Positions 3,386 to 57,188 of a stretch of 64,000 nt of DNA are shown piece by piece; position 1 is the first letter of the stretch; each line of letters starts with the position of its first letter. The position numbers and the translations under genes are program-made. The notes under the pieces are model-generated. The model had not been told where the DNA came from and did no database searches. It saw only the letters and a list, made by a program, of their open reading frames with translations. Origin of the DNA: Pseudobdellovibrionaceae bacterium (GTDB lineage Bacteria; Bdellovibrionota; Bdellovibrionia; Bdellovibrionales; UBA1609); the NCBI GenBank assembly GCA_947444305.1, contig CANEZP010000001.1, positions 268,151-332,150 on the forward strand, in the 5' to 3' direction.

Positions 3386-3561
3386 GTTTTTCACCCTCGG
3401 CCCGATCTTAAATTAAGCCATACTTTGCCCCTGAGTTCCAAATGGAAACGTCGGCGTATCGTCCTGAGACGGGGCACATTACGTTGAATTCTCCTCCTCG
3501 CTTTGGTAGTTAGACCTCATTCGAACTTATCCCTCACGCTTTCCAATTTTAGGAGGCCAGT

Positions 3562-4584: not shown

Positions 4585-5786
4585 GCGATACGTGGTCCGT
4601 CAACATGATCAGCGCGTACGGCCGGGGCGAGACCCTCGCCCTCGCGTTGCAGGACATCGGCTTCGACGTTCAGATTATGGATTTCACCGAAGCCCTCGGG
4701 CCGGAGTTTGAGCGCGGGGTCGGGCCTTTTCCGGTCGCTTCGACGGCGTTCATCCCTAAACAAGAATCGTTTTTAAGCGAAGTCCGGCCGTTAAAGCGCG
4801 GCATCACCTTCTGGCTTCCCGACGGACCGCTGGAATTATCCGGTCCAATGAGTGATTTCTTCGCCGGCCGCGATCCCGCGATTAAGCATCTGCGCACTTC
4901 GCCGGGGCCTGATTTTGCTTCCGACTGGCTTCGCCGCTTCATGAAGATGTGGACCTCACCTTACCACTGGGACGCCTGGCAAGCTTCGGTCCCGCCGGTG
5001 ACTTTTCCTTACGCCGATAAAATCGGCTTAGTGCCCCCCACCAAAGAAGCGCGCGTGATGGGTTTCGAGCGTTTCCAGACTCTAGGAAATAAATATTTCG
5101 GCGCGGCGATCTTGCGTGATGTGCAGTTTGAAAATTCACGCATCCTCGAATTAGAAGTCGAAAGCGGACGCCGCGAGGCTTACCGTTCGCCGCAATGGAT
5201 CTGGTGTTTGTCTTCCGACGAAACCGACCGCGTCGGCGTCGAAGTGGCGCAAAGCCTGTTCCACGATAAAATCCGCCGGCCCGAGTGGCGCTGGATTTCC
5301 TTCCAGGGCCGTTGCGATCGCGGGCCGTGGTCTTCGGGTTTTCCTGAGTACACCGTCATGCTTAACGATCTGCATTTGCCGTGGGCCTACGCCAACATGA
5401 TGGTGTTGCGCTGGACCGAAAGCGACGTTTTTCAAGTCTGGATGAAAGTTCCGGCAAGCGCCTGCTTCAAAGAAGAGCGCCGCTTTGAGTGGGCCGAAGA
5501 AGCCCGCGCGCATCTGGTGAAACGTTTGCCGCTCGCCGGTTGGACCCTTGAACATACCGCTTGGTCGGTATGCCCGCATTCGTGCGTTTACGATTTATCC
5601 GTTCAAGAAGACAGCATCCCCGGTTGGAAAAACTGGGATTGGATCGCGCCCGAAACTTTGGCGCGTTTAGATATTTCCGCACGCCTCGAGCGTGAAGCCG
5701 CCGCTTACCAACGTTTGGTGAGTTGGCGCGCGGACCAAATGAAAAAACAAGGAGCCCGCCGTGATCAGCCGTTACACACGCCCTGA
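4581..5786 (+). CDS. Unknown protein in purine operon; degenerate FAD/NAD-binding-like fold
   Basis: About 401 residues if it begins at TTG 4581, which overlaps the purM stop as TTGA; an ATG at 4605 is an alternative, and an upstream start at 4542 would overlap purM needlessly. The N-terminus (S-A-Y-G-R-G-E-T-L-A-L-A-L-Q-D-I-G-F-D-V-Q-I-M-D) has the layout of a Rossmann beta-alpha-beta unit of flavin oxidoreductases, with a GxGxxG loop that is not canonical. Around residue 185-215 a strand/loop like the inner half of amine-oxidase folds recurs (L-R-D-V-Q-F-E-N-S-R-I). Tryptophan content is high. No catalytic residues are assignable. Its position between purM and purB with coupled ends suggests a role tied to purine synthesis or flavin status, but that is inference. 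Confidence 0.72.
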   Translation: MSDTWSVNMISAYGRGETLALALQDIGFDVQIMDFTEALGPEFERGVGPFPVASTAFIPKQESFLSEVRPLKRGITFWLPDGPLELSGPMSDFFAGRDPAIKHLRTSPGPDFASDWLRRFMKMWTSPYHWDAWQASVPPVTFPYADKIGLVPPTKEARVMGFERFQTLGNKYFGAAILRDVQFENSRILELEVESGRREAYRSPQWIWCLSSDETDRVGVEVAQSLFHDKIRRPEWRWISFQGRCDRGPWSSGFPEYTVMLNDLHLPWAYANMMVLRWTESDVFQVWMKVPASACFKEERRFEWAEEARAHLVKRLPLAGWTLEHTAWSVCPHSCVYDLSVQEDSIPGWKNWDWIAPETLARLDISARLEREAAAYQRLVSWRADQMKKQGARRDQPLHTP

Positions 5787-34259: not shown

Positions 34260-34408
34260 GCGGTCCGCCGCGCGGCGACTCGTGATCGGACCGCGCAACT
34301 GCCGGCCTGTACGTACCGTATCGTTTAAGCAAGACGGTATGTATAGGGCGCGGGCAACGACCAAAGGAAGCCACCGAGCCAAGCCCGAACTCTGCGCGCA
34401 CAGAGTTC
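34260..34408. repeat. Gap with three inverted repeats
   Basis: The 259-base gap between the TPM gene and the L,D-transpeptidase gene holds GCGGTCCG/CGGACCGC (34260-34267 with 34287-34294), TACGTACCGT/ACGGTATGTA with one G-T wobble (34310-34319 with 34334-34343), and GAACTCTG/CAGAGTTC around CGCGCA (34387-34408). The third belongs to a palindrome family found again near 54000-55100. No gene is seen. Confidence 0.7.
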
Positions 34409-53677: not shown

Positions 53678-53772
53678 ATTTTTTGTGAATCTGGGATTGT
53701 AGAGTTCGGGTATCTCGGCTTCGAAGCGCCCATGCGTTTGGCGCGGAAGATCGTCCATCCATGCGAGTGCGG

Positions 53773-53797
53773 CCATTCCGCCATCCGGGCGGAATGG
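53773..53797. repeat. Strong hairpin after the RelA/SpoT-like gene
   Basis: CCATTCCGCC and GGCGGAATGG form a perfect 10-bp stem with a 5-base loop, about 95 bases after the stop. No T-run follows, so it is not a standard intrinsic terminator. Confidence 0.55.
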
Positions 53798-53866: not shown

Positions 53867-53957
53867 TTCTTCTTCCTCTTCTTCCTTCTTTCTTCTCTCT
53901 CTCTCTCTCTCTCCTTTTCTTTTCTTTTCTTTTCTTTTCTTTTCTTCCTCCTCTTCC
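53867..53957 (+). repeat. 91-nt pure polypyrimidine tract with (TC)10 and (CTTTT)6
   Basis: Every base from 53867 to 53957 is C or T. It contains ten TC units (53894-53913) followed by six CTTTT units (53914-53943). Open frames across it on either strand encode only S-L/F-L or K-R-E runs and are not genes. Confidence 0.92.
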
Positions 53958-53988
53958 GCAAAACAACAATCCTCCCCAATATTTCACT

Positions 53989-54012
53989 CTTGCGGCCGCG
54001 GACGGCCGCAAG
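53989..54012. repeat. Strong GC-rich hairpin
   Basis: CTTGCGGCCG, loop CGGA, CGGCCGCAAG: a perfect 10-bp stem with a tetraloop, just downstream of the pyrimidine tract. Confidence 0.6.
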
Positions 54013-54074
54013 AAGCCACTCTCAAGGACGGAACATCTCTGCCAACAGAAGATGAGGCCATCGAAGCCGAAAAC

Positions 54075-54088
54075 TCTGCGCGCGCAGA
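54075..54088. repeat. Palindrome TCTGCGCGCGCAGA, copy 1 of the HNH-linked cluster
   Basis: A 14-base perfect palindrome. Further copies: 54860-54873 and 55075-55094 (extended to a 20-base perfect palindrome) inside the HNH gene, a degenerate one at 54139-54153, and a related site at 34387-34408. Confidence 0.7.
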
Positions 54089-54386
54089 ATTTCTTCCGAA
54101 GGTCTTACAAAAACAATTACCCGGTAAGTCACGAAGCACTCTGCGCGACCAGAACTATTTTACATTTTTTCTCCACGTAAATATAATTTGACGAGTCTTT
54201 CAAGCGAGCAGTGAAGCGCTCCTATGTTTTATTCTCTAAATTTGATTTTGAACTTAAAACGGCAGAGTAGATCGTCGTATTGACTCGAATCGAAGCTTTA
54301 AAGGCGAACTATAAATGTCCTTCGCCAGCCTAAAAAAGACAATTCTAAAACCCATGTTAGCTTCATCGCATCTTAAGGAGTCGAAG

Positions 54387-55343
54387 ATGAATGCTGAGCA
54401 AAAATGGATTCATGAATATGCGTTGGCGGCGAAAGTTCGTTATCATAAATTTGAACTTGAGTTCGTTCAGATCTTGAAAGATGTCGAACGCAGTAAAACT
54501 CATAAGGCCTTGGATAAATCGAGCGTACATGCTTACGCGGTTGGGATCTTAGGATTTACCGATGCGGTCGCTTACAGCTTTATCGCGGTGGCACGCAAGT
54601 CGCGCGAGGTGCCTGAGATACTGGAGTCTGGACTTTCCGTTTTCGTTTTGAATCGCATGGTTTCTACGCTGAAGCCAGAGAATGCGGATGAACTTATTCG
54701 CTTTGCCCAAACTCATTCAAGCCGCGAGCTTGAGCGAGAGTTAGGTCGGCGTAATCCGCGAAGCAAATGTGAAAAGGTTAAATTCATATCTGAAGAGTGC
54801 GTTGAGATTTCGGCGCATGTTTCCGGTGCGTTTCTAGAGAAGCTAAAACGAGTCGAAGCTCTGCGCGCGCAGAAAAGTCAGCCGCACGGTGTTGGGCGTG
54901 CGCTTGAGGCCGCTTTGGAGGAATATTTGCGAAAGCACGATCCCGTACAGAAGGCGGAGCGGGCTCAGCGGCGTCAGACGAAAGCGCAAGCGACGAAACA
55001 CGAAGAGACGCAGCGTAATGAAACCCAATGTGACGAGAGCTCTAAGCAATCGGCAGGCGTCGGTTTGCCGGAAGAACTCTGCGCGCGCAGAGTTGTGAGG
55101 CGTGTGCCGCTGACCGCGGCGCAAAGACACGCGGTGTTCGCGCGTGATTTCGGGCGGTGTACGAATCTGGGCAAGGACGGGAAGCGGTGCGGATCAGATC
55201 AATGGATTCAGGTGCATCACATCGTAGAAGTTGCGAAAGGCGGGGGGAATGATCCCGCCAACCTGACTACGCTGTGTTCATTTCATCATGATCAGATTCA
55301 CCAATTAAGCCTACCTATGGACGAGCGGCAGGCGGTCGGTTGA
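54387..55343 (+). CDS. HNH endonuclease-family protein (paralogue)
   Basis: 318 residues from ATG 54387, chosen because AAGGAG (54375-54380) is 6 bases upstream; ATG 54315 lacks any. Same plan as 17602-18483: a helical N-terminal module (about 1-120, with H-K-A-L-D-K-S-S-V-H-A-Y and V-P-E-I-L-E-S-G), a charged linker rich in K, R, E, Q, and a C-terminal HNH domain (R-D-F-G-R-C, K-R-C-G-S, V-H-H-I-V-E-V-A-K-G-G-G, L-T-T-L-C-S-F-H-H). Two TCTGCGCGCGCAGA palindromes fall within the coding sequence. Upstream DNA and early codons are more AT-rich than neighbours, which suits transfer. Confidence 0.85.
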   Translation: MNAEQKWIHEYALAAKVRYHKFELEFVQILKDVERSKTHKALDKSSVHAYAVGILGFTDAVAYSFIAVARKSREVPEILESGLSVFVLNRMVSTLKPENADELIRFAQTHSSRELERELGRRNPRSKCEKVKFISEECVEISAHVSGAFLEKLKRVEALRAQKSQPHGVGRALEAALEEYLRKHDPVQKAERAQRRQTKAQATKHEETQRNETQCDESSKQSAGVGLPEELCARRVVRRVPLTAAQRHAVFARDFGRCTNLGKDGKRCGSDQWIQVHHIVEVAKGGGNDPANLTTLCSFHHDQIHQLSLPMDERQAVG

Positions 55344-57188
55344 TTACCTCTTCATTGCTAGGTATTCGGCGGAGGACAGCAAAGCGGCGCGGACTTGCGG
55401 TAGCGTCAATTGGCCCGCGATGACGGAATTCACGTTGGCCGCCAATCCACCCGCGTCGGGCTCGCGCTTAAGGATTTGCTGGTAGGCCAACGTCACTTGT
55501 TGGCGCGCCAGTGCGCGATGTTCTGTGGACTCCAGAATCGATTGACGGGCTTGGCCAAAACTCAACAGGCCGGCCTCGATGTTTGCGGAGAAAGCGTTCA
55601 GGCCGCCAATGTCGGGTTCGCGCATTAAGATGTAAAGGTACAACTGGCGGATCGATTCGCGGAGCGGTGTGAATTGCGGTGTCGGATTCAGATTGATGTA
55701 TTCTTGGGATTGCAGAAGTGCCTGACGTACTAGTTCTAAGCTCAACGAGCCGTTGTTCACCGCGTTTAGGTAGTTTTGTAAGCCGGCCGCGTCGGGTTCG
55801 CGCTGAAGGATGTTAACGAAGAGCTGGCGTACGGATTCGCGCAGAGCATTCTGATCGGAAGCCGCGGCCGTCGCGGGCCCGCGAACGACCGTTTCGAACG
55901 GAACGTCCATGTCATGCCATAAGGGCACGGCCAGACGAAATGAAACCGCAGCGTATGAGGCGCGACTGATCTTGGTATCTTCGAAGATCACGTTGGTCGC
56001 GTTTGGAATCGTGTACGCTAAACCGTTTACGGTCGAGAGTGCGCCATCGGTATTGATACGCATCGCGCCGCCTGAGCTATAAACCATATTGTCGCGTATG
56101 CGCATCGGGGCGCCGCCACGCACTTGTTCAATAATGAAACCGGTCAGTGCGTTGCGGACGATGTTGTCGTGGACAAAACCGCCGAACGTGGACGAGGCGT
56201 CCCGGTACCAACTATCGCCCCCAATGTATAAGCCGAAGCCGCAACGCCGGCGAGGGCCACAATCAATTTGGTTTCCGGAAATATCCGAATTTGTATAATC
56301 GCCTGAGGTGCGGCCGGGCCACGATTGAATCATCATCGCCGCGAAAGCCGCGCTTGAAAATGAATCTCCGTGACGGATCAAATTGTTTTGGATTCTACAG
56401 TTTTGACAACCGCCGAAGATGAAATCTACGTCTGAGTTATCGATGAATAAGTTAGAGTTAAATTCAGAATCTTTAGCTTCGAGTACGGTCATGCCATCCG
56501 CGTAGCGGTCTTGGTGAGCGCCGTTAAACGCGACGGTGTTGCCGTTCATTTTGAAGCGTGAGCCTTCGACGGCCAGGGCCGTACCGCATAAAGTGTTCTT
56601 GCTGGTTACGCCTTCGACCGTGATCTCTTTTCCGTTGACGTTAATGTTCCATCCGCGCCCGGCGCCCGCGTTCGGGTTTACGCATTCCGCGGCGGTTGCG
56701 GAACCAAGGCGCGCGGCCCGGTTTCCGTTGACGACTAAATTGCGAACGACCGCGCCGGTACCGGTGATGTTCAAGATGCCGGCCGCGTTGTCGGCTTGCG
56801 TGTTCGGAACCGCGCGCATCTCGAAGCAAGGATGCGCGTCGTTGACGCCGCATGAAAAACCGGCGGGCGTATTTTTAGTTGTGATCGAAATAGCGCGCGC
56901 GATCTTGATCGTGCCGCTAACCAAGGCCACACCGGGAGGAAGTTCTAAGACGGTATTTACCGCGGCACCGTCAATGCAAGCCTGCAACGCGCCGGTCGCA
57001 TCTTGACCGGCTTGCATCGCGCTAATCAAAGTCGCGCAAGAGGCGGGCAGCGAAGCGGGGCTGAAGTTCACCTGACTGCCGGTCACCAGTGACGGCATAG
57101 CCACAACCTTATTCAAAGCCGAGAAATCTCCACAGGCAGTTAAAGTCGCGGTACAAGCCAAAGCGAAAGCCATCTTTATTAAGTTCAC
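55344..57188 (-). CDS. Beta-helix lipoprotein with three DUF4214 repeats
   Basis: 614 residues from GTG 57188 (AGGGGG 5 bases upstream). Lipobox T-L-T-A-C. Residues about 60-430 read as a right-handed parallel beta-helix of pectate-lyase type (repeated short strands: V-V-R-N-L-V-V-N-G-N-R, F-K-M-N-G-N-T-V-A-F-N-G, C-R-I-Q-N-N-L-I-R-H-G), with several Cys pairs. The last 165 residues are three DUF4214 modules (R-Q-L-F-V-N-I-L-Q-R-E-P-D-A-A-G-L; R-Q-L-Y-L-Y-I-L-M-R-E-P-D-I-G-G-L; Y-Q-Q-I-L-K-R-E-P-D-A-G-G-L). DUF4214 often sits on surface or extracellular proteins. Probably a surface-exposed polysaccharide-binding or -cleaving protein; no catalytic residues are assigned. Confidence 0.88.
   Translation of the reverse strand: MNLIKMAFALACTATLTACGDFSALNKVVAMPSLVTGSQVNFSPASLPASCATLISAMQAGQDATGALQACIDGAAVNTVLELPPGVALVSGTIKIARAISITTKNTPAGFSCGVNDAHPCFEMRAVPNTQADNAAGILNITGTGAVVRNLVVNGNRAARLGSATAAECVNPNAGAGRGWNINVNGKEITVEGVTSKNTLCGTALAVEGSRFKMNGNTVAFNGAHQDRYADGMTVLEAKDSEFNSNLFIDNSDVDFIFGGCQNCRIQNNLIRHGDSFSSAAFAAMMIQSWPGRTSGDYTNSDISGNQIDCGPRRRCGFGLYIGGDSWYRDASSTFGGFVHDNIVRNALTGFIIEQVRGGAPMRIRDNMVYSSGGAMRINTDGALSTVNGLAYTIPNATNVIFEDTKISRASYAAVSFRLAVPLWHDMDVPFETVVRGPATAAASDQNALRESVRQLFVNILQREPDAAGLQNYLNAVNNGSLSLELVRQALLQSQEYINLNPTPQFTPLRESIRQLYLYILMREPDIGGLNAFSANIEAGLLSFGQARQSILESTEHRALARQQVTLAYQQILKREPDAGGLAANVNSVIAGQLTLPQVRAALLSSAEYLAMKR

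Follow-up and report, generated by a model that had tools for sequence, protein, structure and literature searches.

An HNH gene of a Pseudobdellovibrionaceae bacterium is paired with palindromes of its own, located upstream of the gene and inside its coding sequence, and related genes in the same genome and in other genomes are paired with different ones. Judged from sequence comparison, the palindrome is probably the recognition site of the ParB-HTH-HNH protein encoded beside it, acting as both operator and rearrangement junction of a mobile REP-like unit of gene and site. We analyzed a window of 64,000 nucleotides, the whole stretch to which the positions below refer, together with its own genome (G000; 4.17 Mb), other genomes (G numbers), and individual loci (L numbers). 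The features in the window were as follows.

34387 to 34408, no strand: solitary palindrome in an intergenic gap, with two unlike halves (CGC and TGC type)
53731 to 53793, forward strand: dispersed REP-like hairpin, copy A
53946 to 54074, reverse strand: copy B of the dispersed REP-like hairpin, reaching to within a few bases of P1
54075 to 54088, no strand: palindrome P1, upstream and distal, adjoining the REP-like hairpin
54140 to 54153, no strand: palindrome P2, upstream and promoter-proximal, two bases decayed, its centre 41 bp before TTGAC
54188 to 54192, forward strand: TTGAC box, a putative -35 element at a fixed distance from P2 across paralogues
54387 to 55343, forward strand: HNH gene, with the conserved ATG at 54387 as its likely start and an open frame from 54315
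54438 to 54761, forward strand: predicted ParB/Noc/KorB-type DNA-binding domain (model residues 18 to 125; the independent model of a relative agrees)
54860 to 54873, no strand: palindrome P3, in the gene, coding A-L-R-A-Q-K and restricted to the four type-1 copies
55075 to 55094, no strand: intragenic palindrome P4, within the low-confidence linker immediately 5' of the HNH domain, coding E-L-C-A-R-R-V
55101 to 55307, forward strand: HNH nuclease domain, in which H-H...N...H-H and the cysteines are conserved
55344 to 57188, reverse strand: DUF4214 gene, abutting the HNH stop codon

The 14-mer TCTGCGCGCGCAGA was found exactly at P1, at P3, and at 55078-55091, where it forms the core of the 20-bp perfect palindrome P4. 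These are the three perfect copies, two of them within the coding sequence, that an earlier note on this DNA had described, and both points were confirmed. The degenerate copy that it placed at 54139 exists with two mismatches to the 14-mer and starts one base later, at 54140. The distant copy that it reported at 34387-34408 is also present, as GAACTCTGCGCGCACAGAGTTC, whose core at 34391-34404 differs from the 14-mer by one mismatch. With up to two mismatches allowed, the window held eight matches, compared with a mean of 0.81 and a maximum of 3 in 100 shuffles. The genome-wide frequency check proposed in the same note found the exact 14-mer at 12 sites of the 4.17-Mb genome, which form four clusters (C1, C13, C16, and C18) with exactly three sites and an HNH paralogue each. 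A reversed control pattern had no site in the whole-genome count, and only about 0.03 sites were expected for the 14-mer by our own base-composition estimate, which was not computed by a tool. The frequency is therefore above that predicted by base composition, and every site is linked to an HNH locus.

The link between palindrome and HNH gene was strongly supported and proved to be specific to the gene subfamily. Twelve close HNH paralogues, one of them matched in two pieces, and a more distant one are present in the genome. Five paralogues that are 58 to 60% identical to the window protein carry TTCTGTGCGCACAGAA at the same positions, and two that are 45 to 46% identical carry ACTCTGTTTAAACAGAGT there; the twelfth, C2b, has imperfect sites only. 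Exact sites of types 1, 2, and 3 numbered 12, 17, and 5 in this genome, and of these 34, 6 are solitary and 28 lie at the 11 genes of matching type. The internal site codes for C-A-R-R, C-A-H-R, or C-L-N-R, so that the residues vary and the palindrome is kept. Among 13 internal sites (12 from this genome and 1 from G001; 11 distinct), 96.6% of symmetric positions were paired, compared with 86.3% after shuffling, and changes on both sides were found at four of the eight pairs.

Next, we examined the occurrence of the pairing across the family. Of 58 genomes, 12 including G000 have a homologue at E<=1e-20, and of 140 genomes in the order, 31 have one in a profile search at E<=1e-40; homologues also occur in named Bdellovibrionales, Oligoflexia, 'Deltaproteobacteria', and Lysobacteraceae MAGs. 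The plasmid search gave no match, the phage search matched the HNH part only, and the viral contigs gave one HNH-part match. Among 86 loci, a chosen part of the homologue matches, 32 had a palindrome common to at least two of the upstream, gene, and downstream compartments (at most 1 mismatch in 12), compared with 2.1 (maximum 6) for random centres. The sharing loci represent 14 genome-core types, each with 0 to 3 hits in the loci of other genomes. A linker palindrome with an arm of at least 7 was present in 24 of 62 non-redundant loci, taken from the 74 of the 86 loci with a located HNH cysteine, whereas synonymous-codon shuffling gave 2.3 (SD 1.4, maximum 9 of 300 shuffles) and the same genes outside the linker held 3 palindromes in 41.6 kb. 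No shared palindrome was found at this threshold in 54 of the 86 loci and no linker palindrome of this arm length in 38 of the 62, and the pairing is therefore either not universal or has decayed. When a palindrome was assigned to each locus by rule, 42 loci with 23 genome-core types were obtained; the linker counts should be taken from the codon-shuffle test because one assignment rule used the linker position, and L192 and L179 were omitted from one row set selected from the listed loci. Examples include CTGTAACGTTACAG in L128 and ACTTCCGGCGCCGGAAGT in L202, each both upstream and inside the gene, and AAAACCCGTCGCGCGACGGGTTTT inside the gene of L192. In G014 and G037, a further copy lies just 3' of the stop codon. 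Three loci of G093 (L194 to L196) have CTGGATATCCAG in the gene near +300, which is in the N-terminal domain and outside the linker.

The protein consists of a ParB-like N-terminal domain, a helical middle part, a disordered linker, and an HNH domain. Pfam HNH was matched in all 18 members scanned, and residues H301, H302, N316, and H325 were invariant. In the AlphaFold2 model, the N-terminal domain is helical and confidently predicted (pLDDT about 95), residues 213 to 235 form a linker of low confidence, and the HNH domain follows, the P4 coding position being in or at the edge of this linker. The best structural matches of the N-terminal domain of the window protein were Noc, ParB, Spo0J, and KorB (for Noc 7ng0, Z 8.7 and rmsd 2.6 over 97 residues). 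In a second model, from the Kiruna relative L128, whose N-terminal domain is 31% identical to that of the window protein, the first 29 Foldseek rows were ParB, Noc, Spo0J, or KorB, and after realignment 17 of 17 rows were ParB-family chains (Z up to 9.4; rmsd 4.9 over 115). The Foldseek E-values were not significant for either model (0.64 and 0.20), and a sequence profile of the domain found no ParB chain among PDB chains. Pfam HTH_ParB matched weakly in 3 of 23 members (best E 0.0064) and DUF222 weakly in 2 of 23. The N-terminal domain therefore likely has the ParB/Noc/KorB DNA-binding fold, of a family that reads such palindromes; this assignment from models is likely rather than proven because the E-values were not significant and helical folds match easily. 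A CTPase fold at the N terminus was absent from the Pfam scans and the model, the gene beginning at the helical domain. A relationship to IscB/OMEGA was rejected, as the match was confined to the HNH stretch with 27.8 bits against a cut-off of 175, and the window had no Rfam match.

The perfect sites have a self-complementary centre, and their middle step was pyrimidine-purine (C/G or T/A) in all 21 distinct cores, compared with 59 of the 137 further palindromes in these loci. Such a centre points to reading as double-stranded DNA by a dimer. Distances between palindrome half-sites tracked distances between DNA-binding domains (r 0.38, p 0.0003), also after removal of the HNH distance (partial r 0.29, p 0.0007; reverse partial 0.09). 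The putative recognition helix alone did not track the palindrome (partial r -0.08, p 0.79), and two Kiruna paralogues with different palindromes have helices that differ at a single position out of 12. An association of helix Q with CCC/GGG cores in four genomes was a weak, post hoc pattern.

In addition, the upstream palindrome was found at a fixed distance from the putative promoter. In 19 of the 32 loci with an upstream palindrome, TTGAC starts 37 to 52 bp after the palindrome centre, compared with 0.76 (maximum 5) after base shuffling and with 1 of 32 for control motifs. The spacing was 41 to 44 bp in eight genes of G000 and three of G014 and 49 to 51 bp in five genes of G037 and in L128. 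The degenerate copy of the window at 54140 is its promoter-proximal site, with a spacing of 41 bp. A role of the palindrome as operator of other genes was rejected, since TTGAC lay within 70 bp in only 2 of 35 listed rows, in which one site was entered twice and three rows came from the HNH gene C2b.

We also compared the module structure of gene copies. In nine similar copies of G037, the common blocks begin and end at palindromes. Block ends within 20 bp of a palindrome in both copies numbered 64 of 172 in G037 (null 1.9, maximum 7) and 43 of 226 in G000 (null 1.3, maximum 7), and the G037 count was weaker when a palindrome was required in either copy only (69 of 172 against 34); all these counts rest on copy pairs that are not independent. 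The coding sequence of L103 extends as far as the internal palindrome and continues with the DNA that follows a downstream palindrome in L107, the HNH domain being lost exactly from palindrome to palindrome. In the four type-1 genes, the interval between P1 and P2 appears unrelated between copies, and the flanks on both sides are homologous. The hairpin repeat next to P1 has 50 matches in this genome, several of them palindrome-only or on the opposite strand. In the window and in L070 to L099, this repeat lies upstream of HNH genes and also adjoins Y1_Tnp (RAYT-like) genes. A CT-rich simple repeat (tctctc..., ttttctttttc...) is located at 53895-53950, between the two hairpin copies of the window.

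Short palindromes were dispersed in extragenic space and enriched only in genomes with the cognate HNH gene, against a background of 0 to 3. The pattern ACTCTGN6CAGAGT was counted 25 times in G000, 15 in G001, 2 in G002, 0 in G003, where the HNH gene had no match at E<=1e-20, and 0 to 3 in the other 54 genomes; CCTGTCGNNCGACAGG was counted 47 times in G037 and never in 14 others. Solitary copies frequently join two unlike half-sites, several lie between convergent genes, and arrays have a period of about 26 to 31 bp. Tandem palindrome-like arrays with a 30- to 31-bp period were observed in L119 (2548-2740), L120 (2368-2578; in frame inside a 591-aa ORF), and L121 (1500-1785). A stretch of G001 (L228; C3:26000-38000) has six copies within 8.5 kb in intergenic gaps, several of them adjoining another repeated palindrome around CGGCCCGGGCC. 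In L041, type-2 palindromes at 3491-3512 and 5337-5356, 1.85 kb apart, flank a trypsin-like gene, which is possibly cargo; an empty-site search for this gene gave no syntenic match. Rfam showed no tRNA or Rfam link in the window, and ARAGORN detected tRNAs only in the vicinity of two solitary-site loci.

In G003 and G002, the genes flanking the window element abut, with neither HNH gene nor palindrome between them, and the DUF4214 gene is missing there together with the HNH gene. From this comparison, the element of the window appears to be either a gain here or a loss elsewhere. We rejected insertion into a pre-existing palindrome on the basis of these two empty sites; they argue against the solitary palindrome as a target without excluding it, because the relatives are only about 70% identical. 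Of the readings that the earlier note had put forward, target sites in the sense of cleavage sites gained no support, the two empty sites lacking a palindrome. Recombination points gained support from homology blocks that stop at palindromes, and REP-like elements from solitary copies and arrays, whose occurrence in the genomes follows that of the cognate HNH genes. The interpretation of the note as a whole held in part, and it lacked the fixed palindrome-TTGAC spacing, the paralogue-specific palindromes, and the ParB-like domain.

In the explanation that we prefer, each palindrome would be recognized by the HNH protein of the adjacent gene, which would bind it as a dimer through its ParB/KorB-like helix-turn-helix domain, with the HNH domain as the nuclease. 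Protein at the upstream site, with the TTGAC box about 42 or 50 bp further on, would regulate its own gene. The palindromes would also be the boundaries of modules (the REP-like hairpin, the promoter with the DNA-binding domain, the HNH domain, and the downstream DNA), at which copies may have been cut, joined, duplicated, and spread. Gene and palindrome together would form a mobile unit, and solitary palindromes would be its dispersed by-products. Of the accounts covering the pairing, the placement, the promoter spacing, and the junctions, it is the simplest. Binding at the palindrome, autoregulation, and breaks made there by the HNH domain are what we infer from these patterns, and the evidence argues better for a regulatory site of the own protein than for a place of breaking and joining. 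An intact palindrome in the gene would expose the gene to its own cutter, which is a point against this explanation, and for its junction half the main rival is short-repeat recombination. A further-reaching version is conceivable, although we consider it doubtful: a mobile element whose ParB-HTH-guided HNH nuclease would cut its own palindromes at the element ends and between domain modules and compatible ends would be rejoined, so that modules are excised, duplicated, and shuffled, while divergence of palindrome and domain would separate the subfamilies within a genome.

A rather unlikely alternative is that the palindrome is a KorB-like operator only, at which the enzyme is inactive, the palindrome-to-palindrome junctions having arisen by passive short-repeat recombination. 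The fixed TTGAC spacing at 19 of 32 loci, the predicted ParB/KorB-like fold, and the intact palindrome inside the gene all fit such an operator; however, palindromes also occur past the stop codon, at scattered intergenic positions, and in arrays, for the most part with no TTGAC box, and block ends fall at palindromes far above chance. Alternatively, the palindrome could be a REP-like repeat moved by another enzyme, such as the Y1 transposases that share the neighboring hairpin, with the HNH gene as a passenger. The REP-like hairpins beside the palindrome do adjoin Y1_Tnp genes as well, and several solitary palindromes sit between convergent genes. We nevertheless consider this improbable, as most REP-like hairpins without an HNH gene have no palindrome alongside, the palindrome sequence follows the HNH subfamily and its DNA-binding domain, and enrichment is restricted to cognate-HNH genomes. 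Even less credit is given to a function as RNA, in the form of an mRNA hairpin: the palindrome can fold and some copies lie in transcribed DNA, but the would-be loop is self-complementary, always with the pyrimidine-purine step in perfect sites, and copies also occur after genes and in intergenic DNA. The A-L-R-A-Q stretch encoded at P3 is conserved, and this palindrome may partly be an accident, whereas chance, codon bias, or base composition as a general explanation is contradicted by the codon-shuffle and dinucleotide nulls, the sharing between compartments, and the genome-wide counts, and has hardly any probability left.

We compared the own-protein-site account with known systems. DUF222/13E12-HNH proteins consist of an N-terminal domain plus HNH, a likeness to the protein here, and the weak DUF222 hits were far below a family match. 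Free-standing HNH homing endonucleases resemble it as stand-alone HNH genes with a patchy distribution and presumed selfish spread; in contrast, the putative target here, if the palindrome is the recognition site, is uninterrupted and intact beside and inside the gene. REP/REPIN sequences and RAYT transposases, as outlined in PMC3116915 and PMC3686654, pair a gene with a short dispersed palindrome in cognate sets that vary by genome. The system here is similarly a gene with a cognate, dispersed, genome-specific palindrome, but the gene is HNH and no Y1 (HUH) transposase is paired with the palindrome, Y1_Tnp genes lying elsewhere beside the hairpin repeat. The palindromes here are moreover perfect, have no hairpin loop, and also occur within coding sequence and at a constant distance from the promoter. 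ParB/Noc with parS/NBS and KorB with its operator have long palindromic sites as well and probably share the predicted DNA-binding fold; specificity of ParB/Noc shifts by a few residues, as outlined in PMC7383237, and KorB acts in long-range silencing, as outlined in PMC11790492. The case here differs in its HNH domain and its many private sites, and neither a CTPase fold nor, next to the window gene, a partition gene was noted. ParB-CTPase-HNH fusions have been reported (PMC12704722) and, as outlined in that source, carry the other ParB domain, unlike the protein here. A literature search by title and abstract beginning found no published description of such a gene-palindrome pairing.

The pairing is a case of a DNA-level signal retained in coding sequence despite amino acid change. 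It is also a candidate nuclease-driven counterpart to REP/RAYT, and if the self-cutting mobile element considered above were true, it would be a new class. With 23 genome-core types, the family offers more than 20 natural protein-palindrome pairs for studying specificity change in a ParB-type domain; the earlier ParB/Noc specificity study is outlined around one pair of sites, parS and NBS (PMC7383237), and the specificity residues outlined there may provide a route to testing the protein-palindrome code. Altogether, many HNH gene copies in these relatives of predatory bacteria have a private palindromic 'address', which suggests recognition by the protein that each copy encodes.
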